In this document: positions 15,081 through 62,597 of the stretch, piece after piece
How the letters are laid out: each line of letters begins with the position of its first letter
Numbering within the stretch: position 1 is the stretch's first letter
DNA from: Gammaproteobacteria bacterium
GTDB taxonomy: Bacteria > Pseudomonadota > Gammaproteobacteria > GRL18
Assembly (NCBI GenBank): GCA_016744375.1
Contig: JADGEM010000003.1
Span: 1-64,000, forward strand
Reading direction: 5' to 3'
DNA: 64,000 nucleotides
Notes under the pieces: model-generated
Databases searched by the model: none
Seen by the model: only the letters and a program-made list of their open reading frames with translations
Told to the model about the DNA's origin: nothing
Program-made: the position numbers and the translations under genes

Positions 15081-15583
15081 TTCTGAACAGTTGCAATATT
15101 CCGTTGCTTACGATGCTGATAAATTGCCCGCAGATAAGCCTGTTCATAAAATCCAGGCTGTTTGGCAATCTCAGTACATAGTTTTCTGGTATCAGGACGC
15201 TGTCCACCACGTCCTAGATCCAGACGATCAGCATCCCAGCAGGTCCCAATCGTCAAATCAGCTTCAACAAAACCCTTACTATGATCATGGCAGGCCTGCA
15301 TTAATATTTGTTTGTCTTTATAATCAATTCCCAACAGGTCATCCGGCAAAGTTGCGATAAATCGAGCGGCCCGCTCACCATGGAGGGGATCATTAAAATC
15401 AGCCTCTCGCTTAATATCATGCAAAAAAGCAAACAACTCCACCACCCGTTGATTAGCCCCATTTTTTTGCGCCATGAGCAAGCCATTAATGCGAACTCTT
15501 GCCCAATGAGAAACCCCATGCACACCTTTCCAATTAAGCTGAAATGTTTCCCGGATAAGTAATATTAATTCTTGACTGATCAT
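15062..15583 (-). CDS. HD-domain metal-dependent phosphohydrolase
   Basis: A small (173 aa) HD-superfamily protein. Metal-binding residues are visible as GVSHW (His near 25), FLHDIKRE (His-Asp near 55), a further His in LMQACHDHSKG, and DADRLDLGR (Asp near 118). The substrate is unknown. It is cytosolic, the first gene of a two-gene unit with the acetyltransferase, and divergent from gor. Confidence 0.8.
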   Translation of the reverse strand: MISQELILLIRETFQLNWKGVHGVSHWARVRINGLLMAQKNGANQRVVELFAFLHDIKREADFNDPLHGERAARFIATLPDDLLGIDYKDKQILMQACHDHSKGFVEADLTIGTCWDADRLDLGRGGQRPDTRKLCTEIAKQPGFYEQAYLRAIYQHRKQRNIATVQKWKPVL

Positions 15584-31643: not shown

Positions 31644-33818
31644 TTATTTAATAAAGAGCATTTCCTGATACTTAGGCAGAGGCCAGAGTTCATCAGCAAC
31701 AACAGTCTCAAGTGTATCAGCATGAGCACGAACTTTATCCATCAGACCACGGATTTCAGTCGCAAAATATTGTGTATGATCATCTGTTGATGCAAAGTCT
31801 TCATTCGTCAGAGCTTCGCTGAGGCTTCTTACTGCTGCCATCATTGAGTTTGCTTCTGTTGCGACAGTCTGTGCCACTGAGTTATCCATTTCAATGCCCA
31901 TTTCACCCAAACCTGAAGCGGTCATTGTCAATTCTGACAAGTAACGGGTAGCAACCGGATAGATTAAAGTTGTGGCCATATCTACAACCAGCTTTGCTTC
32001 CACTTCAATAGACAGGATGTATTGCTCAGTATAGACTTCATAACGACTGGCCAGCTCAACCGGAGTAAGCACACCGGTACTTTCAAAAAGCTTTTTAACC
32101 GCATCATCTTCAAATGCCGGCAGGGCATCAGCCGTGGTTGGAATATTTTTAAGACCTCGTTCTTTAACAGCAGCTTCATGCCAGTCACTAGAGTAACCGT
32201 CACCACCAAAGACCGCATTACCATTATCTTTAATCAGCTCCTGAAGTACATTAATTACTGCTGCAGTTTTATCGCTACCAGATTTTAACTCTGCATCCAG
32301 TTTATCAGCAATCCAATTCAGAGAGTCAGCAAGCATGGTATTCATCACAATCAATGGACCTGAAACAGATTGTGCAGAGCCCACAGCACGGAACTCAAAA
32401 CGATTACCAGTAAATGCGAATGGTGAAGTACGGTTACGATCACCCGGATCACGCTCAAAATTCAGAATCTGAGAAAGACCCAAATCCATTTCACCACCAC
32501 CGTCTACTTTTATCAGTTTACCGTCTTTAATGTCTTCGTACACTTTCTCAAGTTGTGAGCCAAGATAGACTGATAAAATAGCAGGAGGTGCTTCATTAGC
32601 ACCCAGACGATGGTCATTTCCTGCAGAAGCAATAACTGCTCGCAGTAATGGCCCAAATTGATGGACACCACGAATCACCGCACCACAGAACAATAAGAAA
32701 TTCAGGTTGTCATGAGGGGTACGGCCCGGATCCAGCAGATTACCCTGTGTGGCATTACCCACAGACCAGTTAACGTGCTTACCTGAACCATTGATTCCGG
32801 CAAATGGCTTTTCATGTAATAAACAAATGAAACCGTGTTTCTTTGCAGTGACTTTTAAAATAGTCATCAACATTTGCTGATGATCAGCGGCGACATTAGC
32901 GGCTTCAAAATAAGGAGCAATTTCAAACTGACCGGGAGCTACTTCATTGTGGTGAGTTTTAGCAGGGATACCCAAACGATAGAGCTGATCTTCAACATCT
33001 TGCATATAAACCTGAACACGAGCTGGAATCGCACCAAAATAATGGTCATCAAATTCCTGGCCTTTTGCTGATGGCGCACCAAATAATGTACGACCTGCTA
33101 ATAATAAATCAGGACGGCTGTTGGCAAAGTTTAAATCTACCAGGAAGTATTCCTGTTCTGCACCACAACTGGAATTCAGAGGAGCAATTTCTTCTTCACC
33201 CATCAATGAAAGCACTCGGTTACCCGCTTTGTTCATGGCATCATTTGAACGCAATAAAGGTATTTTCTTATCCAGGGCTTCACCAGTCCATGACATAAAG
33301 ACACATGGAATCATCAGTGTTGCGCCATTATCAGTATGCTGAACATAAACCGGGCTGGTGGGATCCCATGCAGTATAACCACGAGCCGCATTGGTCATAC
33401 GGATACTACCATTAGGGAATGAAGAACCGTCCGGTTCGCCTTTGATCAGCAGACTGCCAGTAAATTCTGTAATCGCGCGGCCATCAGAGTTCGTGATAAC
33501 AAAACCATCATGCTTTTCAGCAGTCGCATGAGTCAATGGGTAGAAGATATGAGAGTAAAATTTAACACCTTTAGAAACAGCCCATTCTTTCATCGCTGCA
33601 GCGACAATATCTGCATTGGCTGAATCAAGAGGTTCACCAGTTTGTACAGTTTTCTTAATTGCTTTAAATGCATTTTTTGACAGTGCATCTTCCATTGTTG
33701 CAAGATTAAAAACATCGCATCCCCAGATCTCATTCAGAGGCTCAGTTTTGTCTAAATCTAAAGTTTCACGGTTTGTGATTTGGTAAATTGCTTGAAGGCG
33801 TGACTCATTTCCACTCAT
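31644..33818 (-). CDS. glnN: Glutamine synthetase, type III (GlnN)
   Basis: The 724-aa length and N-terminal block (EIWGCDVFNLATMEDALSKN, then KEWAVSKGVKFYSHIFYPLT) are specific to GSIII. This is a large hexameric glutamine synthetase found in Bacteroides, cyanobacteria and scattered proteobacteria. Catalytic motifs NSSCGAEQEYFLVD, HHNEVAPGQFEIAP, NGSGKHVNWS and GNDHRLGANEAPPA are intact. It lacks the GSI adenylylation tyrosine. Its strong ribosome site (GAGGA) and a 31-bp perfect palindrome lie upstream, and an intrinsic terminator follows. Confidence 0.95.
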   Translation of the reverse strand: MSGNESRLQAIYQITNRETLDLDKTEPLNEIWGCDVFNLATMEDALSKNAFKAIKKTVQTGEPLDSANADIVAAAMKEWAVSKGVKFYSHIFYPLTHATAEKHDGFVITNSDGRAITEFTGSLLIKGEPDGSSFPNGSIRMTNAARGYTAWDPTSPVYVQHTDNGATLMIPCVFMSWTGEALDKKIPLLRSNDAMNKAGNRVLSLMGEEEIAPLNSSCGAEQEYFLVDLNFANSRPDLLLAGRTLFGAPSAKGQEFDDHYFGAIPARVQVYMQDVEDQLYRLGIPAKTHHNEVAPGQFEIAPYFEAANVAADHQQMLMTILKVTAKKHGFICLLHEKPFAGINGSGKHVNWSVGNATQGNLLDPGRTPHDNLNFLLFCGAVIRGVHQFGPLLRAVIASAGNDHRLGANEAPPAILSVYLGSQLEKVYEDIKDGKLIKVDGGGEMDLGLSQILNFERDPGDRNRTSPFAFTGNRFEFRAVGSAQSVSGPLIVMNTMLADSLNWIADKLDAELKSGSDKTAAVINVLQELIKDNGNAVFGGDGYSSDWHEAAVKERGLKNIPTTADALPAFEDDAVKKLFESTGVLTPVELASRYEVYTEQYILSIEVEAKLVVDMATTLIYPVATRYLSELTMTASGLGEMGIEMDNSVAQTVATEANSMMAAVRSLSEALTNEDFASTDDHTQYFATEIRGLMDKVRAHADTLETVVADELWPLPKYQEMLFIK

Positions 33819-45359: not shown

Positions 45360-47720
45360 ATGAACAAATTCTTCAGTAAAAAAGTATTAAAATTTCTAAT
45401 ACTGACCTTGTTCACCAGTTGTTTATCCTTACCCCAATCAGCCCAGGCAGCTGATCTATTTTCATCATACTATGATCTCAAACAACGAGCCATCTCCTAT
45501 CAGAATGAGGTGAAACCAATATTGGACACACGCTGTGTTGTTTGCCATGCCTGTTATGATTCACCATGTCAATTAAAACTCGGTTCAATTCAAGGCATAG
45601 ATAGAGGGGCTACCAAACAAGTTGTCTATGATGGCGGCAGACTAAGCCCAGTATCACCCACTCGTCTGTTTATTGATGCTGACAGCACAGAAGGGTGGCG
45701 ACAAAAGCAATTTTATCCTGTTATAAATAATACCACTCGCACAAGTCAGCTCAATCTAACACACTCTTTGATGGCACAATTCATCAAGTTGAAACATAAG
45801 CACCCACTTTCTAATACGGGAAAATTATCCAATAGCTTTGATTTCGATCTAAACCGAAAATTAGAATGTCCTGATCAGTCTGAATTTAATCAATTCCAAA
45901 AAAAACATCCTAACTGGGGAATGCCTTATGCAATGCCTGGTCTGACATCTGAAGAAGAAATTATCATTTTATCCTGGCTGCAGCAGGGAGCTAAGTTTGA
46001 GAGATTACCTCCTTTATCACACACAATTAAAGAAACTATTACACAGTGGGAAAATTATTTTAATCGCACATCTTTAAAGCAGAAGCTGGTCTCTCGTTAT
46101 ATCTATGAACATCTGTTTATCGGACACCTCCATTTTAAAGATCATTCTGATAATGAATTTTTTCGCATGGTGCGTTCGACAACACCAAGTGGACAACCTA
46201 TACAAGAAATTGCAACATTGCTTCCTTACAACGAACCTGGTGTTGATCGATTTTATTATCGACTGCGCCGTATTGAAGAAACCATCGTTGAAAAGACTCA
46301 CTTCATTTATGAACTCAGTCAGAAAAAAATGCAGCGTTTCAATGAGCTTTTTTTTAAACCAGCATACAATGTCACTTACCTGCCTTCCTACAAACCTGAA
46401 ATCTCAAGTAATCCATTTTTAGCATTTGATCAAATACCCTATAATTTGCGATATAAATTTCTCCTCGATAATGCCCAGTATTTTGTGTCCGGATTTATTA
46501 AAGGGCCTATTTGCAGAGGTCAAATTGCATTGGGTGTTATTCGTGACAGATTTTGGATTGCTTTTTTCAAACCCGTAGAAAAGACTGATGAGCCAGATAA
46601 GGCTCAGTTATTGACTGATTTTCTGGCCACTCAAACCATGACACCAAGACTTCCAGGAACAGCAGGTGATAAGCTGGGTTTATTGGGCTTTAAAAAATAT
46701 GATGCACTTGCTAAGCAATATCTTGAAAATAAAGAAACTTTTGCCAATCAGTTTATTAGTCAATTTGGTGGTTTAACAATGGCTCATCTTTGGGATGGAG
46801 ATGGAACCAATAAAAATGCTTTATTAACCATTTTTCGTCACTTTGATAGTGCAACAGTTGTTAAAGGTCTGGTAGGAGAAACACCACTGACAGCCCTGGT
46901 TCTAGATTATCCACTTTTTGAAAGAATACACTATTCACTTGTGGCAGGTTTTGATGTTTATAGCTCAGTTGAACATCAGCTTGCCTCACGTAAGTATATG
47001 GATTTTTTACGCATGGATGGAGAAAATAATTTTCTTCGCTTTATACCAAAAGCCCATCGAAAAAAAATGCATAAGAGCTGGTATAAGGGTTTAAGTGGAA
47101 AACTGGCTAATTATCTTTCTACACCCTATTATAGTGCTGACTATGAAACGGGAGTAACTTATAAAACTCAGTACTACAAAAAAGAATTCTTTAAACAACT
47201 CAAAGAAAAACTAGGCAAGGCTGCTATTAATAAACAATCAATATCAGTCGAAAATGCAAGACCCCATATTACTGAAACAATAAAAAAACTATCTGCGCTT
47301 AAGGGAGAAAAACTGGATGTATTTCCTGAAATGTCTTTAATCAGAATACGTACTAGCCAGAAAGATAATGATCGGGTCTATACTATATTATTAAATAAAG
47401 CACTAAAAAATGTCGCCTTTATGGTTGGAGAGAATCTTCGCAGGGAACGAAAGCATGATACACTCACCATTGTTCCCGGATTTCTGGGTAGCTACCCCAA
47501 TTTTTTCTTTAATGTACCAGAAGAGCAACTGTCTGATTTTATTAGCAGCATTGAAAACATTAAAAATAAAAAAGATAAAGATGACTTTTATATAAAATTT
47601 GGTATACGACGTACAAACCCTGATATCTGGCAGTATGTTGACTGGTTTAATTCACAGCATAAAAAATATCGAGGAGTACGCGCTGGTTTGTTCGATTTAA
47701 ATCGCTATCACAATCTTTGA
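45360..47720 (+). CDS. cti: Fatty acid cis/trans isomerase (heme c, periplasmic)
   Basis: Cti converts cis unsaturated acyl chains of membrane phospholipids to trans, stiffening the membrane on exposure to solvents or heat. The signal peptide ends near LPQSAQA-ADLF, and one CxxCH heme c site follows in DTRCVVCHACYDSPCQ near residue 58. Length (786 aa) fits Pseudomonas and Vibrio Cti (~760-790). The GTAGDKLGLLGFKKYD and MAHLWDGDGTNKNALLT segments belong to the family core. It is downstream of the lipid genes and may share transcription with the RRM gene. Confidence 0.92.
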   Translation: MNKFFSKKVLKFLILTLFTSCLSLPQSAQAADLFSSYYDLKQRAISYQNEVKPILDTRCVVCHACYDSPCQLKLGSIQGIDRGATKQVVYDGGRLSPVSPTRLFIDADSTEGWRQKQFYPVINNTTRTSQLNLTHSLMAQFIKLKHKHPLSNTGKLSNSFDFDLNRKLECPDQSEFNQFQKKHPNWGMPYAMPGLTSEEEIIILSWLQQGAKFERLPPLSHTIKETITQWENYFNRTSLKQKLVSRYIYEHLFIGHLHFKDHSDNEFFRMVRSTTPSGQPIQEIATLLPYNEPGVDRFYYRLRRIEETIVEKTHFIYELSQKKMQRFNELFFKPAYNVTYLPSYKPEISSNPFLAFDQIPYNLRYKFLLDNAQYFVSGFIKGPICRGQIALGVIRDRFWIAFFKPVEKTDEPDKAQLLTDFLATQTMTPRLPGTAGDKLGLLGFKKYDALAKQYLENKETFANQFISQFGGLTMAHLWDGDGTNKNALLTIFRHFDSATVVKGLVGETPLTALVLDYPLFERIHYSLVAGFDVYSSVEHQLASRKYMDFLRMDGENNFLRFIPKAHRKKMHKSWYKGLSGKLANYLSTPYYSADYETGVTYKTQYYKKEFFKQLKEKLGKAAINKQSISVENARPHITETIKKLSALKGEKLDVFPEMSLIRIRTSQKDNDRVYTILLNKALKNVAFMVGENLRRERKHDTLTIVPGFLGSYPNFFFNVPEEQLSDFISSIENIKNKKDKDDFYIKFGIRRTNPDIWQYVDWFNSQHKKYRGVRAGLFDLNRYHNL

Positions 47721-48820: not shown

Positions 48821-49405
48821 TTATGATTTTTTAACAAATTTAGTCAGTATAACAATTTGTTGATCATTTACTCTTCCTTCTATATGTTCAGGATTATCCA
48901 GCACCAGAGAAATATTTCGCACCGAAGTACCACGTTTAGCTGTGAAGCTGGTACCTTTGACATTTAAATCCTTTATTATGACAACAGTGTCACCAGTCTT
49001 TAGTGTTACACCATTACTATCTTTATGAACAATAATATCTTCATCTGATTGATCTTCAGCCGTTGCTTTGGCCCACTGAAGAATCTCTTCATCCAGATAG
49101 AGCATATCCAACAAGTCCTGAGGCCAGCCTTCACTTCGAAGGCGAGTCAACATTCTCCAGGCCATAACCTGTACAACCGGAATTTGACTCCACATACTAT
49201 CATTTAGACAGCGCCAGTGATTAGTATCCATTTTATCTGGATTATTAATTTGTTCCTGACAAATCTGACAGACTAAAATCATTTCTTCCGCAGTGCTTTG
49301 ATCGACAGAAGGAGCAGGAACTTCATAACAGTGTAAATTTTCCGTTGCTCCACAAAGCTCACATTTTGATTCACTTCGTTCATTCAATATTTTTTCTATC
49401 ATCAT
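48821..49405 (-). CDS. PhnA-type zinc-ribbon protein
   Basis: The 194-aa protein starts with a zinc ribbon: CELCGATENLHCYEV, then ILVCQICQEQI, giving paired CxxC motifs. The C-terminal part (VTLKTGDTVVIIKDLNVKG, then VKGTSFTAKRGTSVRNISL) is the PhnA/YjdM domain. Despite the name, this family is not clearly linked to phosphonate use. The middle section is longer than in the ~110-aa YjdM, as in the extended form of the family. Confidence 0.88.
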   Translation of the reverse strand: MMIEKILNERSESKCELCGATENLHCYEVPAPSVDQSTAEEMILVCQICQEQINNPDKMDTNHWRCLNDSMWSQIPVVQVMAWRMLTRLRSEGWPQDLLDMLYLDEEILQWAKATAEDQSDEDIIVHKDSNGVTLKTGDTVVIIKDLNVKGTSFTAKRGTSVRNISLVLDNPEHIEGRVNDQQIVILTKFVKKS

Positions 49406-49529
49406 TCTTTATGCTCTGTTTCTAATACTTTGCTTTTCTAATACTTTGGCTTGCAAAAATCAATTATAAAATAAAGTGAAAAATAGCTTGTGTAAAAATT
49501 TTTCTTTGAACATTTAAAATTTCTGAGTA

Positions 49530-50084
49530 TTATTGCGGGTTTAATTGGGCTAACTCTTCCAATAGACTTTCAACCAGTTTAATGCCTTTTTCATCCATTT
49601 TCCTAGTGAGTATTTTCAGATCACGCTCACCATTCACCATGGCTTGAATTATGCCGCCCAGTTGGCGCATGTCTCCCGTCGCTGATACCATTTGTTCAGC
49701 CATATCAGCAAGCGTAGAAAGTGCTTTGACATCACCTTTTTCAGCCGCATCAATCATCTTTGCAAGCCCGGGAGCAGCAAACTTTGAATCAGCAGGTTCA
49801 TCCATTGTTGGTAATTGTGTGGAGTCCTGTAAACCTACTAAAATTGAAAGAACAATACCAGCGTCTTCATCATCAAGACCCACTAACAACTTACTATTAC
49901 GTGAACCTGCTAATATTTTACGAATCCGGCTAATTAGAGCTACCCAGCCATTTTCTTCAGATGACTTTAATACAGGCTCTAGTTGAGGCAGGATTGCTTT
50001 ATTATGACAAGCCATAACAACACTATTAATTAATTGTGCATGCACTTTGGCAATTTGTTTGGTTTTTTCTGGTAGTTTAGCCAT
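49530..50084 (-). CDS. Soluble alpha-helical protein of unknown function
   Basis: The 184-aa protein has no signal or membrane segment and appears mainly helical: ELAQLNPQ at the C-terminus, LKILTRKMDEKGIKLVESLL, and DEDAGIVLSILVGLQDSTQL in the middle. I do not recognise a family. It lies 43 bp downstream of the lipoprotein that ends the envelope-complex cluster, on the same strand, so it may be its last gene or an independent one. Its less AT-rich composition favours independence. Confidence 0.7.
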   Translation of the reverse strand: MAKLPEKTKQIAKVHAQLINSVVMACHNKAILPQLEPVLKSSEENGWVALISRIRKILAGSRNSKLLVGLDDEDAGIVLSILVGLQDSTQLPTMDEPADSKFAAPGLAKMIDAAEKGDVKALSTLADMAEQMVSATGDMRQLGGIIQAMVNGERDLKILTRKMDEKGIKLVESLLEELAQLNPQ

Positions 50085-50127
50085 TTATATCAACTATTAC
50101 TCAGGGTTATTTTAGTGACAGATAGAA

Positions 50128-50616
50128 TTAATTAAAATGCTTGCTTTCAGACCACAGAATTGAACCACTTCGATTGTTTTTAAGCTGTAATGAAAACACA
50201 CCATAAGTTTGATCACATGAATTTAATTGCAGTCTCACTTCTTTAAATCCACCGCTCAAATGAAAATCACTAGCATCGACATCACTCACAATGATAAATA
50301 AGCCAGAACGTAACATTCTGTTTTTAATGGCAGCATTCAGTGTATTCATATCAATATCGCTGCGATCATAAGTAATAGGAGACAATGATATTCTCATTCT
50401 ATTGTTGATTGTTTCTTGCTTGACATTATTGCTCTGCACCATCGAGTCCACCATTTTATTGGCATAGAGCAGATAATCGATATCCGCCAATTCTATTGAA
50501 TCAAGATTTTCCGGGCATGTCTTCTCCAGTTCGTCAATATTACCTGTAATCGGAAAATGAGTCTGGCATGCGGTTAAAAACAACAGGATCAGTATAGAAA
50601 AAATAAAATATTTCAA
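50128..50616 (-). CDS. LpoB-like lipoprotein, last gene of the envelope cluster
   Basis: The 162-aa protein has a lipoprotein signal (FSILILLFLTAC). The rest resembles LpoB, the outer-membrane lipoprotein that activates PBP1B: DSIELADIDYLLYANKMVDS, NNRMRISLSPITYDRSDIDM, NRMLRSGLFIIVSDV, ending YGVFSLQLKNNRSGSILWSE. LpoB-family proteins span the periplasm to regulate peptidoglycan synthesis, so a cell-wall link for the cluster is suggested, though no PBP gene is nearby. It is ~85 bp after the second VWA gene. Confidence 0.7.
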   Translation of the reverse strand: MKYFIFSILILLFLTACQTHFPITGNIDELEKTCPENLDSIELADIDYLLYANKMVDSMVQSNNVKQETINNRMRISLSPITYDRSDIDMNTLNAAIKNRMLRSGLFIIVSDVDASDFHLSGGFKEVRLQLNSCDQTYGVFSLQLKNNRSGSILWSESKHFN

Positions 50617-50702
50617 ATTTTATACCTCAGATCAATAAAATCTTCTTATCCTTATTTTAAACCATTAAAGGCCAAGTAGCGACCACATGGAAATTATGAT
50701 AT

Positions 50703-51707
50703 CTATTTTAGGCGTGTTAGACCGACAAAACTGCCATTGTTTTCTTCAGTTATTTTTCTCATTAATGCCGAAAAGCGCGCAATATTACTTTCTGTCCCGG
50801 GATGATTGAATAATACCGGGAAACCAACTGCATTAATTCGGACACGTTTCTTACCTGAGTGGCCGTTTTTATTTAATCGATTGACTGTATTGAGTAATGA
50901 CTGGATTGAACCTCTGGAAAAATCATCACCAAATATATATAAGGATATCTGTTTGTCACTGGCATAAAATCGGCGAATTGCCTTAGTAATACCTTCTTCA
51001 GGAGAGGAATTAGAAAAAGGTTCCCAGTATGATAATTGTTTTAAAATCGATCGCCTTCTGGCTGGTGTATCTGGAATCCATTTTCCTGCATATTGGCTGA
51101 ACATATAATCACCCATATCATTCATAACCTGAATGCCTTTGACATTGGGATGTATCTGTAAAATTTCTTTCATTTTTTTACGAACCATAGACCAGGCAAA
51201 ATTTTTCATTGAGCCGGATGTATCAATGATAAAAATAACATATTCACTACTGACACTGATTCCACCAATGGTATTTTCTTTATTGGTCACTGGAGTATTC
51301 TTTTGCAAACGACGCATTTCTTCCGTTAGACTTTGACGAGCCTGGCTTAATTTTTTTTGAATAATTATTTTTGCTTGAAGTTGATTGTTTGAATCTTCAA
51401 AGTCATCTTGAATTTGAGTTAAATTTGATTCGTTACTGCTTAATTGATTATTGGTAGTACTTATTTGTTGTTTTGACTGTTTTATTTCATTATTTATGTC
51501 GATTATATCAGCCTGAATCAAGGCCAGTTGTTGTTTAGACTCTTGTATGTTTTTTTTCAAATCTGCTGTAGTTTCTTCAATTATGATTGGCTGAGATATT
51601 TTACTGATCACCAATAATAAAATAATAGCTCCAAATCCACAGGACACGACATCTAAAAAGGACAGATTGAACACTTCAATACTTTGTCGTTTACTACGTT
51701 TTTTCAT
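50703..51707 (-). CDS. ExbD/TolR-like anchored VWA protein (copy B)
   Basis: The 334-aa protein has a short basic N-terminus, one membrane helix (FNLSFLDVVSCGFGAIILLL), a coiled coil at about 40-140, and a periplasmic von Willebrand A domain at about 155-334. The metal site (MIDAS) is IDTSGSM near residue 162. The helix, with FNLxFLD placing Asp at its start, recalls ExbD (NVTPFIDV) and TolR, where that Asp carries protons. It overlaps the paralogous copy A by 4 bp. Probable role: stator-type partner of the proton channel. The VWA ligand is unknown. Confidence 0.8.
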   Translation of the reverse strand: MKKRSKRQSIEVFNLSFLDVVSCGFGAIILLLVISKISQPIIIEETTADLKKNIQESKQQLALIQADIIDINNEIKQSKQQISTTNNQLSSNESNLTQIQDDFEDSNNQLQAKIIIQKKLSQARQSLTEEMRRLQKNTPVTNKENTIGGISVSSEYVIFIIDTSGSMKNFAWSMVRKKMKEILQIHPNVKGIQVMNDMGDYMFSQYAGKWIPDTPARRRSILKQLSYWEPFSNSSPEEGITKAIRRFYASDKQISLYIFGDDFSRGSIQSLLNTVNRLNKNGHSGKKRVRINAVGFPVLFNHPGTESNIARFSALMRKITEENNGSFVGLTRLK

Positions 51708-52804
51708 GGCCAGTCCCGACTCGGTGTAATAAACGAGCCTTTAGTATCAATGGCCAACTTCCAGAAAAGTGCTGCAGCCATCGGATCCCCTTCCATAGGC
51801 AGTAATATTGTATTCACCGGGATTCTTTTTGGTAAGATTGTAATCGCCTGTGTCAGTAACTTAACTCGTTCGTCTGCTGTGACTTTTGTTTTATTTGTTT
51901 TTTTGTTTCCCAGTGTTGGTAATCCATCTGTAATAAGAATAATATTATCTGGTTTTTGAGTCATTGATTGAACAGTATCAAATGCTTTTATCAGGCTGGT
52001 CCCATTTTCTGGTATCAACTTATTCAGTTGACGAAATATGTAATTTATCTTTGATGATTCATGACTCTTTATCCAATTGTAAGATTGATCACGACTTAAA
52101 GAATTCACCTTTTTATTAAAGTTCAGTAATAAAAATTGACTGTCAGACGGCAAATTTGCAACCATCCATTGAACACTCCTAATGGTCTGTTGCCATTTTC
52201 TTGTATTTCTTTTTACATTATCAGGGAGGTTTCTCTTCACAATTATATTAACAATTGTCTCATCCAACATGGAAGCTGAACTATCAATTAAAAAAAGAAC
52301 CCGCTTACCACCTAATTTCAGGCCCGTTAGATATTGACGATGACCATCACCCTCATAGGGACGAATCTTATCTCCACTAATTTTGATAGCCGTCTCTATT
52401 TTATTATTATTTTGGCTATTATTACTATCAATTTTTTTAATCTCATTTTTCAGGGAACTAATAGTTTTTTCCAGATCCAATGATTTTTTCTGTTTATCAT
52501 TTTTATCTTTCTTTATCGTAGTGATTTTATTCTCAACTATAGAAAGTGTCTGCTTAATTTTTAAGAATTTATCCTGACTTTCCTGTAAACTTTTTTTTAA
52601 TTTATAGTGGTATTTTTTAGAAGTTTTTGATTCTTTTTTAATCTCTTTTAATTCTTCAGACAGTATTTTATTTTTTATTTTGTTGTCACTGACAATTTGT
52701 GAATTAATAATTAATACTAATAAAACAACAGCACCAAAACCACAGAACATGATATCTAGAAAAGCCAGATTAAAAGATGATATATTTGTTTTTTTATTTT
52801 TCAT
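51704..52804 (-). CDS. ExbD/TolR-like anchored VWA protein (copy A)
   Basis: The 366-aa protein is built like copy B: a basic start, helix FNLAFLDIMFCGFGAVVLLV, a Lys/Glu-rich coiled coil at about 40-145, and a VWA domain at about 165-366. The MIDAS reads IDSSASM near residue 175, followed by LLNFNKKVNSL and ILITDGLPTLG. The FNLxFLDxxxCGFGAxxLL pattern shared with copy B is strong evidence of duplication. It is 21 bp after the ExbB-like gene and overlaps copy B by 4 bp, so the three are likely translated together. Confidence 0.8.
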   Translation of the reverse strand: MKNKKTNISSFNLAFLDIMFCGFGAVVLLVLIINSQIVSDNKIKNKILSEELKEIKKESKTSKKYHYKLKKSLQESQDKFLKIKQTLSIVENKITTIKKDKNDKQKKSLDLEKTISSLKNEIKKIDSNNSQNNNKIETAIKISGDKIRPYEGDGHRQYLTGLKLGGKRVLFLIDSSASMLDETIVNIIVKRNLPDNVKRNTRKWQQTIRSVQWMVANLPSDSQFLLLNFNKKVNSLSRDQSYNWIKSHESSKINYIFRQLNKLIPENGTSLIKAFDTVQSMTQKPDNIILITDGLPTLGNKKTNKTKVTADERVKLLTQAITILPKRIPVNTILLPMEGDPMAAALFWKLAIDTKGSFITPSRDWP

Positions 52805-52825
52805 ACATTTTAAACATTGCTATTA

Positions 52826-53641
52826 CTACTTTAGTCCTGCAGCACTTCTTAATCGAGCGACCAAATTTATATCACAATAGCTTTCAGTGTCCAGTACCAG
52901 ACGTTCCTGTAATAATTGTAATTGGTGAATAAAAAACATCAGAAGAATAGAAATAACCAGAGCAATAAATGTTGAATTAAAAGCCACGCCTAGAGATTCT
53001 GTTACTCCAGTAATATCACCTTCCATCGCTCTATTGGCCTGTGATAGGGCGTCACCAATACCCCGAACAGTGCCAATAAAACCAACTGAAGGTATGGCCC
53101 AGGCAATATATCTAATAATCGACAATTCCGTATCCAGTCTTTGTGATTCTGATTCACACACATCTCTCATTGCAGTAGCAGCATCATGTACATTGCGAGT
53201 TGCAGAGAAACGCTGAATGGTCATAGTCAATGCTCTGGGTAATAAATATTTATGCAGTGTCTCTGGCAAATCTTTCAGACGCTCCAATAGCAAGCGAGTA
53301 TCCTCAGGACCCACAGGGAAGTCGATCGGTAACTTTAATAAATCCATATCAAGCAACTGACTCTGCCTCCAGGATAAATAACCTTTAAGCCCTAAAATTG
53401 AAAATGCCCAGAACATTAGAATAAAGCAGGCTTCCTGTTCATAATCTCTTACCACTACATAAAAATTCCTTTTTTGCACATACGTTTTATCAACCAGCAT
53501 TTGTTGATGTTCCTGCTCAATAAAATGATCGGCTTGAGGGCGTATCACAGAAATATAAACTGTATGGACAATAATGAAAGCAATCAGTAGTGAGAAAATC
53601 TGATAAATTAATTCCATTGGAATATCTTTTCTACTATTCAT
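52826..53641 (-). CDS. MotA/TolQ/ExbB-family proton channel protein
   Basis: The 271-aa protein has helices at about 10-30, 70-90, 168-188 and 200-223. The third and fourth match the ExbB/TolQ core: WAIPSVGFIGTVRGIGDALS and SLGVAFNSTFIALVISILLM, including the Pro/Gly-rich turn and the channel Thr. These proteins form pentameric proton channels that power ExbD/TolR/MotB-type partners. The two following genes supply such partners with VWA domains. The long loop between helices 2 and 3 is cytosolic. Confidence 0.88.
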   Translation of the reverse strand: MNSRKDIPMELIYQIFSLLIAFIIVHTVYISVIRPQADHFIEQEHQQMLVDKTYVQKRNFYVVVRDYEQEACFILMFWAFSILGLKGYLSWRQSQLLDMDLLKLPIDFPVGPEDTRLLLERLKDLPETLHKYLLPRALTMTIQRFSATRNVHDAATAMRDVCESESQRLDTELSIIRYIAWAIPSVGFIGTVRGIGDALSQANRAMEGDITGVTESLGVAFNSTFIALVISILLMFFIHQLQLLQERLVLDTESYCDINLVARLRSAAGLK

Positions 53642-53664
53642 TTTATTTAATATTTCCTTGAAAT

Positions 53665-53913
53665 TTATATATCAACTGGAAAAGAAACCGCGCTGTCTGC
53701 ATTTATTTTTTCACTTGGGATAAAGGTAGCAGGCTGATTCCGATGGTTCGTTTTTTTTCTGGATTTAGATATTTTATTTTTTGAATCGGCAGTTTGATCA
53801 GTCTTTAAATTTTTTTTGCTTTCTTCTGTATGAACTATTCCACTATAAACGATAGCAATGAGAAAACATGCTAATATTCTATACTCAAAAAATAGGGTGT
53901 TTAATAATTTCAT
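53665..53913 (-). CDS. Small exported or anchored protein of the envelope cluster
   Basis: The 82-aa protein has an N-terminal hydrophobic segment (YRILACFLIAIVYSGIVHTE) and a Lys/Ser-rich remainder with KSRKKTNHRNQPATFIPSE. It overlaps the upstream SUMF1 gene by 4 bp. Its function is unknown; position suggests a small subunit of the complex. Confidence 0.6.
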   Translation of the reverse strand: MKLLNTLFFEYRILACFLIAIVYSGIVHTEESKKNLKTDQTADSKNKISKSRKKTNHRNQPATFIPSEKINADSAVSFPVDI

Positions 53914-56435
53914 AATGCATACCGTGCAAGTCTGAAACCAATATCGTTAGCTTTCTTTTTACTATAGCTTCTATAACTTAATCTCAGCTCAGTTATTGAA
54001 GCATCTCGCCAACTTGAATCCTTAACAACTTTATGACTTCCTTTGATAGGACCTGTCGGATTAATAATTATCTTTTTTATGTAAGAACGTGCTGGATTTG
54101 GAGAATAATAATCCTGACACCATTCAGACACATTACCACCCATATCATAAAACCCGGAGGAATTCTTTTTATAACTGCCAATCGGTGCAGAAACACCCTG
54201 TTGATCATTGTAGCCCTGTATCACATTAGCAACATAAGGTTTTGCCATTTCATCTGCAAAATTCCCTCTCACTTTTATTGGTGGAAAATTATCAGCCCAT
54301 GGGTACTTTTTCTGCTTGATGCCTCTTGAGGCTAAAACCCACTCAGCCTCAAAAGGAAGTCGATAACCACTTATTTTTTTTGATATATCAACAGGCTCCA
54401 TTTTACCGGATGCTTCTTTATAATAGGGGGTCAAGCCTTCTTTTCTACTTAACCAGTTGGCAAATTTTGCTGCATCATTCCAGGTAACATTAACAACCGG
54501 TTGCTTTTCACCGGATAGTGAAGCACTGGAAATGACACCCGATTTATGTCCTGACATAAAAGTTTTAAATTGTTGATTACTTACCTCTTTATCAGAGAGA
54601 TAGAAATCATAATCCAGCTCAACTTTATATTGTCTTTCATTAGAACCACGACCCGATTCATTTTTTTTTGAACCCACTATAAAATTTGAAGCTTTCATTA
54701 GGAGCATGTTTTGTTTTATTGTATTGGTATAATTATTTTTAGTTTTTCCAGATTTAGAATCATTCTTTGATTTATTATAGAGTGATTTAGACTGACTTAT
54801 TTTTTTTAAATTAAAACTGATATTTTTGCTGTAGTTGCCTGCTGTCAGATTTTTAGACTGAGTAAGATAACCCGTTTGTTGAGCAATAATTCTATGTTTT
54901 TTCCCTTTTAAATGAAATCTTCCGGAAGATTCTTTTTGCTGTATTCCATCAATGATCAGTTTTGCACTGCTGGGAATCACTGAAATAAATACGCTCCCAT
55001 CAATCATTTTAAGATCAATGATCTGTTCAGATTTTTCACCTGGCTCAAAAATCATTTTTTGTCTATTTTTTTTATAACCAGATAAACTCAATTCTACTTC
55101 ATGCTGAACATTAGGGATTAAGTTAATTTTTTTAGGGGTTTTTCCATTATATTTACCATCAACCCGGATAATACTACCTGATGGTTTTGTATTGATGTAG
55201 ACACTAGCATCTTCTGGTGCAAGAGTTTCAATATTAACCTTTTTGTATTCATTTGCTTCTACTTTAAAATTTATTTTGAATTCTTTAAATTTTTCTTTAT
55301 TTATTGTTGCTATATACTGTCCGGCTATCAATTCAATCTCAACTTCATGAGTCAATTTACCTTCATAGAATTTTTCTAAATAATCATTATTATCTTTCTC
55401 AGTTAAATAAATTTCTAGTAAGGTATTATCTGTCATTGAAGTAAATTCTACATTTCCCCAATTTGCAATGAGTTTGAATTCAAATATTTGCTTTGTATTT
55501 TTTCCTTCTACATTAATTATCTGTTCATAATATTGATAACGTGGATTTTTGATAACAATATTATGCTCTCCACTCATCAATTCATATTGTTTTTTTTCAT
55601 TCTTTTCTAGAAGATTACTACCTTCATAAATTTTATTATTTGTTTCTGGATTAATTTTAAGTGTAATTTTCCCAGACATTTCATCCATTATAAATTGATA
55701 ATCTTTATTAACTGCATCAATATTTATTGACTGTTTTAAAGGAAAATAACCTTTTTTAAACGCGCTTAAATTATACTGCCCCTTTAAAAGCATATAACGA
55801 TTGTTTATTTTTATAGGAGGTATGACACCTGACAGTGTTATCTTATCTGCCTGGGGTTTAATATCTATTGTGACTGTTTCTGCAAATAATATAAATATAG
55901 AAGCTAATAATAATAAAATAGAGACAATTGTAATAATCACTTTCTTTAGTGATAATTTTTTTTCTCCTTTATCAACAACTTTTTTGAATTGCCTTGTATT
56001 AGCCATGTCTGATTGTTGAGAGGAGGGGGGTGGAGGAATTAATTCTGGTGAAGTATTAAATGTTTTTTTATTATGATTTTTTTCTGAGATATTTAGTTGA
56101 ATAATATCACCAGAAACATTATAAGAAATAACTTTACTCCCTATAAGTAGAACATCTCCAGATTTCATCCAGACTGATTTCTCAATTTTTACATCATTAT
56201 GAAAAATATTAATGTCATTTATTACCGATACAGGCTGGAAAAAAATATGGCCCTCAGATTCGGCAATATGAGCACAAACTTGTACATCATTTTTTTTATC
56301 TAAATTTATCTTTGAGATGTTCAAATGAGTAGAGTCCTCATTTTTTTTCTCAAGACTGAATTCAAATGGTAATTCACTACTATTCAGTTGTCTTAACTTA
56401 TTTTGTTCATCTGTAATTTCAATGTATCGATTCAT
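53910..56435 (-). CDS. FHA-like/PEGA/SUMF1 membrane protein
   Basis: The 841-aa protein has a cytosolic FHA-like N-terminal domain (about 1-125, SVWMKSGDVLLIGSKVISYN) and a membrane helix at about 166-184. About five PEGA-type beta-sandwich repeats follow (190-545), the clearest being TKPSGSIIRVDGKYNGKTPK. A C-terminal SUMF1/formylglycine-generating-enzyme fold spans about 575-841 (SNQQFKTFMSG, GYRLPFEAEWVLASRG, GFYDMGGNVSEWCQDYYS, NDIGFRLAR). The catalytic cysteine pair of true FGE enzymes is missing from the end region, so the domain is probably a binding scaffold. The FHA-like part lacks clear phospho-binding residues. It overlaps both neighbours by 4 bp. Confidence 0.85.
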   Translation of the reverse strand: MNRYIEITDEQNKLRQLNSSELPFEFSLEKKNEDSTHLNISKINLDKKNDVQVCAHIAESEGHIFFQPVSVINDINIFHNDVKIEKSVWMKSGDVLLIGSKVISYNVSGDIIQLNISEKNHNKKTFNTSPELIPPPPSSQQSDMANTRQFKKVVDKGEKKLSLKKVIITIVSILLLLASIFILFAETVTIDIKPQADKITLSGVIPPIKINNRYMLLKGQYNLSAFKKGYFPLKQSINIDAVNKDYQFIMDEMSGKITLKINPETNNKIYEGSNLLEKNEKKQYELMSGEHNIVIKNPRYQYYEQIINVEGKNTKQIFEFKLIANWGNVEFTSMTDNTLLEIYLTEKDNNDYLEKFYEGKLTHEVEIELIAGQYIATINKEKFKEFKINFKVEANEYKKVNIETLAPEDASVYINTKPSGSIIRVDGKYNGKTPKKINLIPNVQHEVELSLSGYKKNRQKMIFEPGEKSEQIIDLKMIDGSVFISVIPSSAKLIIDGIQQKESSGRFHLKGKKHRIIAQQTGYLTQSKNLTAGNYSKNISFNLKKISQSKSLYNKSKNDSKSGKTKNNYTNTIKQNMLLMKASNFIVGSKKNESGRGSNERQYKVELDYDFYLSDKEVSNQQFKTFMSGHKSGVISSASLSGEKQPVVNVTWNDAAKFANWLSRKEGLTPYYKEASGKMEPVDISKKISGYRLPFEAEWVLASRGIKQKKYPWADNFPPIKVRGNFADEMAKPYVANVIQGYNDQQGVSAPIGSYKKNSSGFYDMGGNVSEWCQDYYSPNPARSYIKKIIINPTGPIKGSHKVVKDSSWRDASITELRLSYRSYSKKKANDIGFRLARYAL

Positions 56436-57919
56436 ATTTTTTCTTTACACTGGACATTAATTATTACTGATTGATCATTAGCAGTTATTTCTATTGTCTT
56501 CCTAAAATCTCTATAACCTATTCTTGTTCCAACAATGGTGTATTTTCCTGGCCTGAGCTTAATTTGTTTGTTCGTTAATTTCCCAATCTTTGACACTCTA
56601 TAGATCGTTATATCAGTCCTATTATCAGAGTGTATTGTGACATTAATTTGTTTACTGGCATTATTAATCGCTTCTTTTGCTGATGCTATTTTTTGCATTA
56701 ATAATGGCGTTTTCATTATTGTGTAATAGGAGTTACTATTCTGATTCAATTCGTTTCTGACATATTTTAGAGCTCTTTTAGATTTTTCAAAAATCTTATC
56801 ATTTTGTAAACGTTCAGTCTGATTTACAATATTATCAATTAACTGGTTTAATTGAATATAAGCATTAACTCTTTCCTGTTTCACAATAATCTGCCCAATA
56901 TCAGGGGAAATCTTTAATATATTATTATAGATTATTTTGGCCTCCTGCCACTGCTCTTTCTTTTCTTCTTTTTTTGCACTGCTTATCATATGATTAATTT
57001 TTCTACTGATAATACCTTCACTAATTCTTTGCTCTATATCCTGAATAATAGGATCATCCGAACTCAGTGAGTGTGCTTTTTTTATTTCATTTCTAGCAAT
57101 CGTATAATTTTTTTTATCTAACGCAGAAAGTGCCTGACCAATTGCTTTATCAAAGGAAATTGATTTTTCTTTTAACAACAATTGCTGTAGCTTTTTTTCT
57201 ATCTTTGTATATTCGGGCTCAATAACTAACGCATTTTCAAGCATTTTAATTGCATTATTTGTATCTGATTTTTTTTCATAGTTTTTTGATTTTTGATAAA
57301 GTTCTAATACCTTGGGACGATTTGAAATTCTTGCCAGACTCCTGTTTATTATTAGAACTTTATTATCAATAGCAGAAGCTTTAATAAACTCTTTTTTTGA
57401 CTGTGTTAAATTTTCTTCTTCAAGATACTCTAATCCTTTTTTTATTGATTGCTGTAAAATATTTTCTTTTTGTTCTAATATAGATTCAACTTTTTTAATT
57501 GCCTGCTTAAATTTTTCTTCTGATTTAACATATTCTTTATTAGCTTTATATTCTTCAGCCTGTGCTTCTATTTCCATTGTCTTTTGGTACTGTTCTTTAG
57601 CCCATATGGGCATTTTATTCATTTCTGCCTCTGATTTTTTTATCATCCAGTCAATTTCAATATTCTCATTCTGCTTTTCATTAACAGGAGTAATAATGTG
57701 TCTATCTTTTATTTTATTTATTAATGGTTTATTTTTTTCTTGTAATGATTCAACTGGATGACTAGATGATGGCTCTATCAAGAGTGAAAAGATTATAAAC
57801 AAAAGAACTACAATGAAAGCCAGTAAGACATATATAAGTAAAGACGAATGTCTATTGCCATTATCATTTTTTATCGCATGATTGGATTGTGATGGGGCTG
57901 TTAATTTAGGTACTTGCAA
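56432..57919 (-). CDS. Membrane-anchored helical-repeat protein with PEGA-like C-terminus
   Basis: The 495-aa protein starts with a cytosolic tail and a membrane helix at about 28-50 (LLIYVLLAFIVVLLFIIFSL). A long series of TPR-like helical, Lys/Glu-rich repeats follows (about 95-385; AEEYKANKEYVKSEEKFKQA, NNAIKMLENALVIEPEYTK). A PEGA-like beta domain ends it (about 425-493, LRPGKYTIVGTRIGYRDF). The start is TTG: it is the only standard start after the in-frame stop, and AGGTG precedes it. It overlaps the SUMF1 gene by 4 bp. Probably a periplasmic scaffold of the complex. Confidence 0.75.
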   Translation of the reverse strand: MQVPKLTAPSQSNHAIKNDNGNRHSSLLIYVLLAFIVVLLFIIFSLLIEPSSSHPVESLQEKNKPLINKIKDRHIITPVNEKQNENIEIDWMIKKSEAEMNKMPIWAKEQYQKTMEIEAQAEEYKANKEYVKSEEKFKQAIKKVESILEQKENILQQSIKKGLEYLEEENLTQSKKEFIKASAIDNKVLIINRSLARISNRPKVLELYQKSKNYEKKSDTNNAIKMLENALVIEPEYTKIEKKLQQLLLKEKSISFDKAIGQALSALDKKNYTIARNEIKKAHSLSSDDPIIQDIEQRISEGIISRKINHMISSAKKEEKKEQWQEAKIIYNNILKISPDIGQIIVKQERVNAYIQLNQLIDNIVNQTERLQNDKIFEKSKRALKYVRNELNQNSNSYYTIMKTPLLMQKIASAKEAINNASKQINVTIHSDNRTDITIYRVSKIGKLTNKQIKLRPGKYTIVGTRIGYRDFRKTIEITANDQSVIINVQCKEKI

Positions 57920-57949
57920 CGATATGACACCTAAGTTCTTTAAACATTT

Positions 57950-59158
57950 TTAAAACCCTGTTTCTTTATGATAGATTTCTTTTAATAGTGATTTCCATTT
58001 CATATACTGTTGGTCAGCCGAACCCGTTAGTTCCAATGTCTTTCCATCAACATCAATCAGTATAGGTTCAACCTCAGTAGTAAATGACTCTCCCAGCTCT
58101 TCGATTGCTTCTTTATTGATTTCACTTTCTTTACTGGTTTTAAACCCTTCATAGAGTGCATAAGTTCCACCAGCGACCATCACTGTTCTTAATACACCGA
58201 TTCTATCAACAACATCAGACTTACTGGAGGCTCCCAGAGCTATAGCACCTATAATGGCTGCAACTCCTAATACTTTTTGTGTCATTGCCTTATTCTCAAT
58301 TTCACGAATTGTTTCTAATTCTTCACTCCTGAATTTTCTCCAATTATCATAATTATCCCACATTTCAGAATAATAAATATCATAGTAGTTATTTATGCTA
58401 TCAATTAGCATTTCATCTCGTGCTTTGATATTTCGAATTCTTTGCATCATAGGATCATCAGTAGATGGTAATCGTGCTAATTGATATTGACCTTCTTTGT
58501 TATTTACTAAGTAATTCTCATAAACACTTGGTGCCATGTTTTGAGAAAATCTCAATTCAGCTATTTGCTTGATTTTATTAATTTCACTTAGCGTCAACTT
58601 TTGTCTATATTCAATAATGTCATTTGAAATTTTATTATAGAGATCCTGAAAAACATCCTCACGTTCAATCTCTGTTTCTTTTCTGTTTTCAAATTGAACC
58701 GTTTTTTCATATTCTTTTTCAAACCATTTTTTATTGCTTGCATCTAAAACTCTAATATTTAATACCAGGCTTTCTCCATCTGATTTTATTATTTTACCTT
58801 TTACAAGAACTTCATTACCTTCACTTTCAGCAGGGATCACTCGAACACTTCCCCAATAACCCGTACGCTGCATCGCATATTTCAGGTGGATTGGCATAAA
58901 ACGGGCTTCTGCATTTCTGATTTTTTCTGACAATCCTCTTCTATCTTCTTTATCATCAGGCAGGCTTCCAGCTTCAAACACTTTTATTGAAACATCTAAT
59001 AGTTCTTCATTACTCATTTCTTTTTGTGCCATTATAGGCTTCGTATCTTCTACTTCTTCTCCAAACTGATTAGGTATGGAACTACAAGCACTGAGCACAA
59101 GTACTGAAAGTATAGTAACTAGCTTGTTAAAATATTTTTTATATTGCTTATCTATCAT
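57950..59158 (-). CDS. Large lipoprotein of the envelope cluster
   Basis: The 402-aa protein has a clear lipobox (LVTILSVLVLSACSS). A conserved-looking first domain contains IKVFEAGSLPDD, PIHLKYAMQRTGYWGSVRVI and VLNIRVLDASNKKWFEKEYE, an arrangement reminiscent of lipoproteins with a GNA1162/LpoB-like fold. A Gly/Ala segment (GVAAIIGAIALGASS, near 300) could be a membrane-interacting stretch. It lies 4 bp after the first gene of the cluster. Probable outer-membrane lipoprotein. I do not know its function. Confidence 0.7.
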   Translation of the reverse strand: MIDKQYKKYFNKLVTILSVLVLSACSSIPNQFGEEVEDTKPIMAQKEMSNEELLDVSIKVFEAGSLPDDKEDRRGLSEKIRNAEARFMPIHLKYAMQRTGYWGSVRVIPAESEGNEVLVKGKIIKSDGESLVLNIRVLDASNKKWFEKEYEKTVQFENRKETEIEREDVFQDLYNKISNDIIEYRQKLTLSEINKIKQIAELRFSQNMAPSVYENYLVNNKEGQYQLARLPSTDDPMMQRIRNIKARDEMLIDSINNYYDIYYSEMWDNYDNWRKFRSEELETIREIENKAMTQKVLGVAAIIGAIALGASSKSDVVDRIGVLRTVMVAGGTYALYEGFKTSKESEINKEAIEELGESFTTEVEPILIDVDGKTLELTGSADQQYMKWKSLLKEIYHKETGF

Positions 59159-59162
59159 TTTA

Positions 59163-59918
59163 TCAAATCATTGTTTGTTTATATTTATAATATTCTTGCC
59201 AAAGCTTTTCCTTTAATACAGGATCTTTTTCTTTTTCAGCTGCTTCTTTTAACTGTCTTGCAACAATATCATCATTGATTTTATCAAGTTTTTTTCTATT
59301 ATATTTTTTTGTTTGTGTATTTTTAACTTTAGTCGATTTACTTTCATATTGAACTGAACCTTTTGACTTATCAGTATTTTGTGTATCATCTTCACTACGA
59401 TTATTACTACGTTTTTTTATTAACTCATTTTCAGATTGTAATCCTTCTCCAGCCACTGAATTTTTTCTACTGGTTTGGGTTATTTTTTTATCTTCACTAA
59501 GCAGCATTTCATCAAACTCTCCCAATGATGCCATTAATTCATCATCCAAAGATTGAGTTTTTTCCTCTTCAGTTTCATATTGGGTCTTATCAAGTTGCCT
59601 TTTGCTACTTTGAGATTGATAGCAAGGGAGTTCTGCCAGAGCACTCACCCCATAATATTCCTCTATTTTTAAGCAATTTTCTTTGATTCGAAAGCTTAAA
59701 AACTGTATAAAAACTGAATACTCATTAGAGAGAGACTTATTCATTTCATTATTTAAAGCAGATAATTTTTTTTGTGATTTACTTTTTGTAATATCAAGAG
59801 CCAGGATGGTCTCTTTAAGACTTTGATAACTTTGCCTTGAATGGCTTAAAGAAAAAACATTATTAGTAAGTAAAATTAATAATAATAATATACAACAAGT
59901 GATTCGCTTCTTATCCAT
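59163..59918 (-). CDS. Exported charged protein, first gene of the envelope cluster
   Basis: The 251-aa protein has a signal peptide (ITCCILLLLILLTNNVFS) and a helical, highly charged mature part. The segment DDELMASLGEFDEMLLSEDK is acidic, and the C-terminal ~70 residues are Lys/Arg-rich, ending DPVLKEKLWQEYYKYKQTMI. Two Cys (in ENCLKIEE and LPCYQSQ) could form a disulfide. No family recognised. A TATAAT-like -10 on the minus strand lies at 59973-59978, so the cluster probably starts here. Confidence 0.65.
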   Translation of the reverse strand: MDKKRITCCILLLLILLTNNVFSLSHSRQSYQSLKETILALDITKSKSQKKLSALNNEMNKSLSNEYSVFIQFLSFRIKENCLKIEEYYGVSALAELPCYQSQSSKRQLDKTQYETEEEKTQSLDDELMASLGEFDEMLLSEDKKITQTSRKNSVAGEGLQSENELIKKRSNNRSEDDTQNTDKSKGSVQYESKSTKVKNTQTKKYNRKKLDKINDDIVARQLKEAAEKEKDPVLKEKLWQEYYKYKQTMI

Positions 59919-59972
59919 ATTCTACACATCATTTATATAAGATTTATAAAGTAAAGTAGGCTGATTAAAATA

Positions 59973-59978
59973 ATTATA
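59973..59978 (-). promoter_or_regulatory. Candidate -10 box for the envelope cluster
   Basis: The minus strand reads TATAAT 55 bp before the first gene's start. No strong -35 box is visible at the expected spacing, so confidence is low. The 220-bp gap to gyrB holds nothing else I can name. Confidence 0.35.
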
Positions 59979-60140
59979 TCTAAATAATACTTAATGAATA
60001 ATGAATAACAAACAAACTTTCATTTTTTATAAAAAGCTTATAAGTTCAGCTCTCTACTAACCCTCCCTACTAAAATGAAACTGTCCTAAGTATTGCTGAA
60101 CTAAATCAATCATCAGGGAAGGAAGGGGGTAATAATGAAA

Positions 60141-62597
<2,457 letters not shown>

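Follow-up and report, generated by a model that had tools for sequence, protein, structure and literature searches.

To our knowledge, the proton-driven trans-envelope motors that are understood are few: the flagellar motor, the Ton and Tol-Pal systems, the gliding machinery and Zorya. The subject of this report is a gene cluster in a 64,000-nt stretch of DNA (the window; contig JADGEM010000003.1, positions 1-64,000, assembly GCA_016744375.1) that encodes a TolQ-like channel subunit and two VWA proteins. A described system sharing this core is found in PMC12204202 (Mol Biol Evol 2025), which, in the parts we draw on, distinguishes two families of membrane-anchored vWA proteins. Members of the second family are encoded beside tolQ-like genes without tolR, mostly as heterologous pairs with a conserved membrane Asp, and AlphaFold3 models in the article put the vWA transpore helices inside a TolQ-like pentamer. 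The motor core is therefore already known in silico. Those parts of the article report no deletion phenotype, and its main text mentions neither PEGA nor SUMF1. In addition, the passages of PMC9389320 used here name as an open question for AglQ/AglS whether an axle may be made from two different subunits.

The cluster is composed of nine open reading frames (ORFs), all on the minus strand and directly downstream of gyrB (50128-59918), which we name g9 to g1 in transcript order. An earlier reading of the letters alone (the sequence-only reading) had described these nine same-strand genes, and each ORF was verified where it had been placed. Eight of them, g9-g2 (50703-59918), form one module, whereas the LpoB-like g1 lies outside it. 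This module probably encodes one machine that spans the envelope and is driven by the proton gradient, a variant of the 5:2 motors. The sequence-only reading had recognised no characterised system here; this gives way for the tolQ-like gene and the vWA pair, and stands for a phenotype and for the PEGA and SUMF1 proteins, within the parts of PMC12204202 considered.

Channel subunit g4 and the two VWA proteins

The loci compared below (first set, 99) comprise 19 stretches from relatives and 80 loci from titled records, the latter being the best of at least 551 channel relatives that were confirmed. Two of them, L042 and L043, are copies of L025 and L038; they are still included in the counts of g1, of colinearity and presence, and of invariant Asp, Thr and MIDAS residues, and were dropped from later counts such as those of tails and Asp-MIDAS distances.

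The channel subunit g4 (52826..53641) belongs to the MotA/TolQ/ExbB family (MotA_ExbB, PF01618, 2.3e-15), with a score of 56.9 bits against a cut-off of 22.9, as is expected of the A subunit of a 5:2 motor. Three hydrophobic segments were detected by script and a fourth (~178-200) by reading. Thr191 and Thr224 are invariant (97/97), and in our own reading may be the counterparts of the conserved Thr residues of TolQ and ExbB. The host genome contains eight MotA/ExbB-family genes, one of which is TolQ above the cut-off (298 bits) and lies outside the cluster.

Next to g4 are encoded g3 (VWA1, 51704..52804; VWA_2, 5.7e-7) and g2 (VWA2, 50703..51707; VWA_2, 7.5e-4, below the cut-off). Each possesses a transmembrane (TM) helix with an Asp residue, a heptad stalk and a VWA domain with a metal-ion-dependent adhesion site (MIDAS). 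The two are paralogous partners, the VWA1 profile picking up approximately the first 180 residues of VWA2. The membrane Asp is invariant in both, as expected of B subunits of 5:2 motors (Asp17 of VWA1 in 84/84, Asp19 of VWA2 in 81/81), in line with the claim of the sequence-only reading that an ExbB/TolQ-like channel is joined by two VWA proteins with an ExbD-like helix. The DxSxS motif of the MIDAS is intact in the same 84/84 and 81/81 proteins. No match to PF02472 (ExbD/TolR) at E<=1 was found in g2 or g3. The window thus has a tolQ-like gene with a heterologous TM-vWA pair and neither tolR nor exbD beside it, and the pair is present in 58/58 (g3) and 48/48 (g2) of the loci whose contig has room, by script limits.

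The stalks of VWA1 and VWA2 show a hydrophobic period of 3.50, whose power was matched by 0 and 2 of 1000 shuffles, and contain on average 0.14 and 0.20 prolines. The distance between the membrane Asp and the MIDAS Asp is 151-158 residues in VWA1 and 141-146 in VWA2 in 76/78 pairs; in L031 (135/137) and L032 (134/134) it is shorter in both partners. Since both proteins combine an invariant Asp in the membrane with a MIDAS and with a heptad stalk whose length hardly varies, they may form a paired axle in a channel of the TolQ/ExbB type. A stalk of ~100 helical residues would measure ~15 nm and could therefore reach the peptidoglycan or the outer membrane.

Module boundaries and conservation across genomes

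In the window, ORF coordinates give 4-bp overlaps for g7/g6, g6/g5 and g3/g2, and gaps of 4 bp (g9-g8), 30 (g8-g7), 23 (g5-g4), 21 (g4-g3) and 86 (g2-g1). The 222-bp gap between gyrB and g9 (59919..60140, minus strand) is a probable promoter region. Across 49400-60300, 63 promoter-like sites (54.4 expected) and 3 terminator-like sites (4.2 expected) were counted, none above chance or shuffles.

The sequence-only reading had taken all nine genes as one unit, and here it must be revised to eight. The lipoprotein g1 (50128..50616; LpoB, PF13036, 2.7e-7, above the Pfam cut-off) was considered as a subunit and rejected: it is present in 6/99 loci, every one from the window's genus or family, with ~6 kb between g1 and g2 in L026. 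We therefore regard it as a neighbour.

The co-occurrence of the genes, which the sequence-only reading had proposed as a check, largely holds. In 79/80 titled-record loci the module genes seen share one strand and follow the order g9-g8-g7-g6-g5-g4-g3-g2; L053, the single exception, is a contig end with two overlapping matches. The complete set of eight is found in 47/80, many contigs ending early. Where the contig has room, by the same limits, g9 is present in 44/44, g8 in 47/47, g7 in 56/57, g6 in 65/66 and g5 in 66/74. The titles of the 80 records include Desulfobulbaceae, Desulfuromonadales, Microbulbifer, Woeseiaceae, Lysobacterales and Alphaproteobacteria. In L030, g4 is placed last, behind g2, and g5 remains next to g6. 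Genes overlap at VWA1/VWA2 in 62/80 loci, at g6/g5 in 56/78 and at g7/g6 in 53/71, which suggests possible sub-complexes of VWA1-VWA2 and of g7-g6-g5. Moreover, pairwise protein distances correlate among six proteins (r 0.71-0.93, versus <=0.21 in 300 permutations each) over the window and the 52 loci in which all six are complete.

Loci chosen by g8 instead of the channel (n=18) give a similar arrangement, 17 carrying g9-g8-g7-g6-g4-g3 and 16 also g2 (the L197 stretch ends before g2). In the remaining stretch, L193, nothing other than broken g8 and g7 was found, and the module there seems to be decaying.

In 144 relative genomes, g4 was matched in 20 (three weakly), g8 in 15 and both in 13. 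Over wider samples, g8 was found in 27/369 genomes (20/271 genera) of the class and in 16/398 genomes of the phylum. In the g4 tree, calculated with L033-L035 left out, the window's family and the Desulfobulbaceae, Desulfuromonadales and 'Deltaproteobacteria' rows form a supported set of 34 (100/99) within gammaproteobacterial diversity. This grouping suggests transfer between phyla; the tool itself cautions against taking patterns of this kind as proof. A foreign base composition was considered for the module and rejected, its GC content and GC content at third codon positions being similar to those of the neighbours recF and gyrB.

Envelope proteins g5 to g9 and neighbouring genes

The products of the cluster are mostly extracytoplasmic, as the sequence-only reading had predicted. 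The largest element of the envelope part, g6 (53910..56435), contains a degenerate FHA-like cytoplasmic domain, a TM helix (166-184), a rod of tandem PEGA/Ig-like domains and a C-terminal FGE (SUMF1) fold. FGE-sulfatase (1.6e-39) and PEGA (2.6e-18) both match above the Pfam cut-off, and both are found in 35/35 family members scanned. The rod, measured from the TM helix to the FGE-fold motif, comprises 478-506 residues (5th-95th percentile) in 66/73 motif-bearing proteins, with extremes of 320 and 518; L033 was excluded from this count. Presumably, an active FGE would have two active-site cysteines near the C-terminus. In the 35 members, the C-terminal stretch contains no conserved Cys, and g6 as an active FGE enzyme was rejected on the absence of this pair. 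The best NCBIfam match of g6 is GldK/PorK (6.4e-29), with 101.5 bits against a cut-off of 350.

The FHA-like domain proposed by the sequence-only reading is retained in degenerate form: Pfam FHA is reached at E<=0.01 by 1/35 members, and the N-terminal domain aligns with the FHA-like C-terminal domain of an inserted Hsp70-FHA protein (hhalign 96.4%). On the same count, phosphothreonine binding by the window's g6 was set aside as unsupported. The inserted protein X, with the fold of an Hsp70 nucleotide-binding domain (NBD) followed by an FHA-like domain, occurs inside the module in 36/99 loci (for example, L085:10893-12200). Its matches to PDB sequences are weak and mostly to FHA, and its phosphate loop looks altered in our own reading, which makes ATPase activity doubtful. 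The idea that an FHA-like domain is always present in either g6 or X was not borne out, with a short g6 and no X in 4 first-set loci (two cut or distant) and 6 second-set loci.

The adjacent g7 (56432..57919, TTG start) is predicted to be a periplasmic TPR protein anchored in the inner membrane by a hydrophobic segment (26-44), with a PEGA-like domain at its C-terminus. Its matches to TPR_2 (1.1e-4) and PEGA (0.012) are both below the Pfam cut-off, and its profile (35 rows) matches TPR chains. The lipoprotein g8 (57950..59158), with an invariant Cys25 in 35 rows, is predicted to reside in the outer membrane and to possess a domain of the FlgT/PelC/CsgG/TolB-N type (~48-190) followed by a long helical pair. 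No PDB sequence matches it at E<=1, and a Pfam scan of 35 of 68 g8 proteins gave no family. Beyond residue ~194, the fold matches are to helical rows only, which is uninformative on novelty. The first gene of the module, g9 (59163..59918), encodes an exported low-complexity protein whose C-terminus carries a conserved motif, DDDIVARQLREAAE..DPELREKLW.EYRKYK (32-row alignment); some relatives look lipobox-bearing, a crude lipobox being present in 25/56. In the window, g5, g8 and g9 have no Pfam match above the cut-off. Alignments A4-A6 are built from the window and 34 chosen loci, and A8 from 31 of the 36 inserted proteins X.

The small exported protein g5 (53665..53913, 82 residues) shows, by its profile, conservation in its last residues only, [FYL]-P-x-D-I-COOH. 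This tail is terminal in 78/78 profile-found copies, and only 2 non-g5 ORFs end in P-x-D-I among 6020 complete ORFs of >=60 residues. Because the profile is drawn by the tail itself, missed ORFs were looked for separately. ORFs of 46-97 residues with the same tail were found between g6 and g4 in L031, L050, L081, L089 and L110, upstream of g4 in L032, and likewise in six g8-chosen loci. In total, the tail is present by script in 83 of the 85 first-set loci that have g6 and g4 (L121 ends in FPVDF, and the distant L033 is without it) and in 16 of the 17 such g8-chosen loci (L194 ends in MPSDI). The shortest forms, with precursors down to 46 residues, extend scarcely beyond a signal-like helix and the tail. 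We propose the tail as a putative ligand of the FGE-fold head of g6, a candidate partner because g5 is encoded beside g6, or of a VWA MIDAS, a candidate because a MIDAS typically binds an acidic residue.

Several genes accompany the module in other loci. A TPR protein (L086:2466-3851, where TonB_C is matched weakly) stands beside it in 20 loci, and two lipoprotein-like genes that have no Pfam family (L086:14112-14747 and 14744-15415) in 21 and 19. The distant ExbB-like loci L033, L034 and L035 have a PP2C-like gene close by (Pfam-checked in L034 only), L033 and L034 also have a VWA-type gene, and the three perhaps represent a sister system. The window's genome (G000) contains 12 protein-kinase matches, two of them weak, on contigs C130, C52, C116, C2, C129, C101, C103, C39 and C79. 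Elsewhere in the window, 45360-47720 encodes a 786-residue exported protein that resembles a fatty-acid cis/trans isomerase, and 28820-30223 and 31644-33818 are two closely spaced genes that look to us like glutamine synthetases, one presumably of the large type III kind.

Proposed machine and comparison with known systems

In the machine that we favour for g9-g2, a pentamer of g4 would surround one g3-g2 heterodimer (5:1:1), and proton flow would turn or shift the VWA axle. The stalks would place the VWA heads near the peptidoglycan or the outer membrane, where g8/g9 or the FGE-fold head of g6 may be their targets, and the g5 tail would bind one of the heads, either the pseudo-FGE head of g6 or a VWA MIDAS. 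Overall, the machine would perform mechanical work on a platform of outer-membrane lipoproteins, comparable with Tol-Pal, Glt-Agl and GldKLMN, and not uptake or defence. The sequences display part of this mechanism, and from them we infer a function at the outer membrane or cell surface. If true, the module would add a motor with a near-complete parts list, and it would make it possible to ask whether two different subunits can make up an axle. The short and strictly conserved C-terminal peptide of g5 would offer a handle on what the machine grips, and the occurrence of the module in cultured genera such as Microbulbifer opens its function to testing.

A number of observations weigh against this reading. 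The g4 profile has no match among PDB sequences at E<=0.01, and the VWA match of g2 and the TPR and PEGA matches of g7 fall below the Pfam cut-offs. The channel-VWA contact, the 5:1:1 stoichiometry and all ligand proposals are features that we infer. The correlation between the two stalk lengths (Pearson 0.72, Spearman 0.36) is driven mainly by two outgroup loci and hardly distinguishes a heterodimer from two homodimers, and phospho-regulation is unsupported because, in our own reading, the FHA-like domain of the window's g6 has no usual SRxxH. In L063, L064 and L069 (3/80), the position directly upstream of g4 is taken by other genes, with no g6 or g5 tail found, and in L067 g5 and g4 are ~2 kb apart; the channel-VWA part is hence separable from the rest. 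What the three stand-alone loci affect is the degree to which the partners are obligate, not the motor reading, whose odds therefore stay unchanged.

The distribution of the genes also counts against it. Among the 144 relative genomes, g8 occurs without g4 in G011 and G014, strong g4 without g8 in G001, G015, G017 and G110, and the weak, distant channel matches of G055, G058 and G113 are all without g8. Five of the six strong mismatches (G001, G014, G015, G017 and G110) are at or near contig ends, and G011 is 64% complete. Both g4 and g8 are missing from the same-genus genomes G002, G006, G007, G009 and G010, and the patchy presence in the class sample (27/369) indicates that the module is not essential. 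The assemblies of G009 and G010 are also without this gyrB, and the gyrB contig of G002 has 3088 bases. Of G002, G007, G009 and G010, which were examined, G007 alone shows a true empty site (L175:15900-16000). With a completeness rated at 100%, it gave no match to g4, g8 or VWA1; the 184-residue gene starts only a few bases after its gyrB, and no module gene was found in the 18.5 kb taken.

Other functions have to be weighed on the same evidence. The module shares parts with Glt-Agl, the best NCBIfam match of g6 is GldK/PorK, though far below the cut-off, and Myxococcus gliding uses a surface adhesin of vWA fold according to the sections of PMC12204202 drawn on here. Together, these points suggest a motor that drives an outer-membrane adhesin or a secretion ring; with neither an ExbD/TolR-family match in g2/g3 nor GldL or GldM among the nine proteins, and with no phenotype on record, we consider such a surface-motility or secretion machine unlikely. 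An accessory of the Tol-Pal type, moving or pulling lipoproteins during growth or division for maintenance of the outer membrane and wall, is likewise given a low chance: the genome has TolQ above the cut-off elsewhere, LpoB does not travel with the module, and G007, a same-genus genome rated 100% complete, lacks the module and has an empty site. The wall-remodelling role suggested by the sequence-only reading gained no specific support.

A purely signalling role, in which g4 and the VWA proteins would act as a proton-gated sensor that signals the load on the envelope to the cytoplasm via the FHA-like domain (and Hsp70-FHA, where present) without mechanical output, is consistent with the FHA-like domain of g6, with protein X in 36/99 loci and with the protein-kinase matches in the genome. 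It appears improbable, because the conserved mass is mostly extracytoplasmic with rods of conserved length, the window's FHA-like domain is degenerate, and the nine genes include no kinase or transcription factor. Least credible to us is a Zorya-like anti-phage system, with a motor complex sensing perturbation of the envelope. The module is patchy and spread over phyla, and ZorA2 is the sole PADLOC match of the channel, a weak one (4.2e-4). However, no nuclease, helicase, other effector or OmpA-like domain is present in the module proteins, the other PADLOC matches, of g2 and g3, are weak, to long coiled proteins and mostly within the coiled stalk, and the module site adjoins gyrB in this genus. 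A known defence system was rejected on these weak matches, and the sequence-only reading was right that the cluster contains no Zorya effector, none being detected by Pfam or PADLOC.

Returning to the 5:1:1 motor, it is possible, and we suggest it tentatively, that the module represents a separate machine class, with an obligate VWA heterodimer axle, carried on stalks of fixed length, that grips the secreted, peptide-like g5 ligand (FPxDI-COOH) and works on a ring of a g8-type lipoprotein (FlgT/PelC/TolB-N type), and with an Hsp70-NBD-FHA regulator in one branch. Our search of the literature, in which few subscription journals and no preprints were covered and which is thus weak evidence, found in print neither the whole module nor the g5 tail, the g8 fold or the Hsp70-FHA insertion. 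Within the same limited coverage, and as equally weak evidence, no paper was found that joins a VWA domain, ExbB and a PEGA domain, and the papers containing FPVDI appear to be unrelated.

Each known system shares some elements with the module. Zorya (ZorAB) has a MotA-family channel with a TM-Asp partner, whereas the proteins scanned here have no OmpA-like domain and no ZorC, ZorD or ZorE match by Pfam or PADLOC. Tol-Pal shares the TolQ-like channel and, through g8, a predicted TolB-N-type domain, but the genome's TolQ is located elsewhere. The absence of TolA, TolB and Pal noted by the sequence-only reading holds insofar as Pfam gives no TolA, Pal or TolB-propeller match in the nine proteins, and is qualified by the predicted TolB-N/FlgT/PelC/CsgG-type domain of g8. 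GldKLMN/PorKLMN (type IX secretion) likewise combines an FGE-fold protein with a 5:2 motor; in contrast to GldK, g6 scores far under the cut-off and has a TM anchor, and GldL, GldM and GldN have no match among the nine proteins. Glt-Agl of Myxococcus, according to sections of PMC3169522, comprises the TolQ-like AglR, the two different axle-type subunits AglQ and AglS, the FHA-TM protein GltG, TPR proteins and outer-membrane parts. Unlike the module, its AglQ/S belong to the ExbD/TolR family (PF02472) and not to VWA, and GltG has a TonB domain where g6 has PEGA and FGE-fold domains. The pair with transpore helices in PMC12204202, compared by the text of the article, has no g5, g8 or g9 partner named in the parts considered; it shares with the module the tolQ-like gene, the heterologous TM-vWA pair, the lack of tolR/exbD and the membrane Asp.

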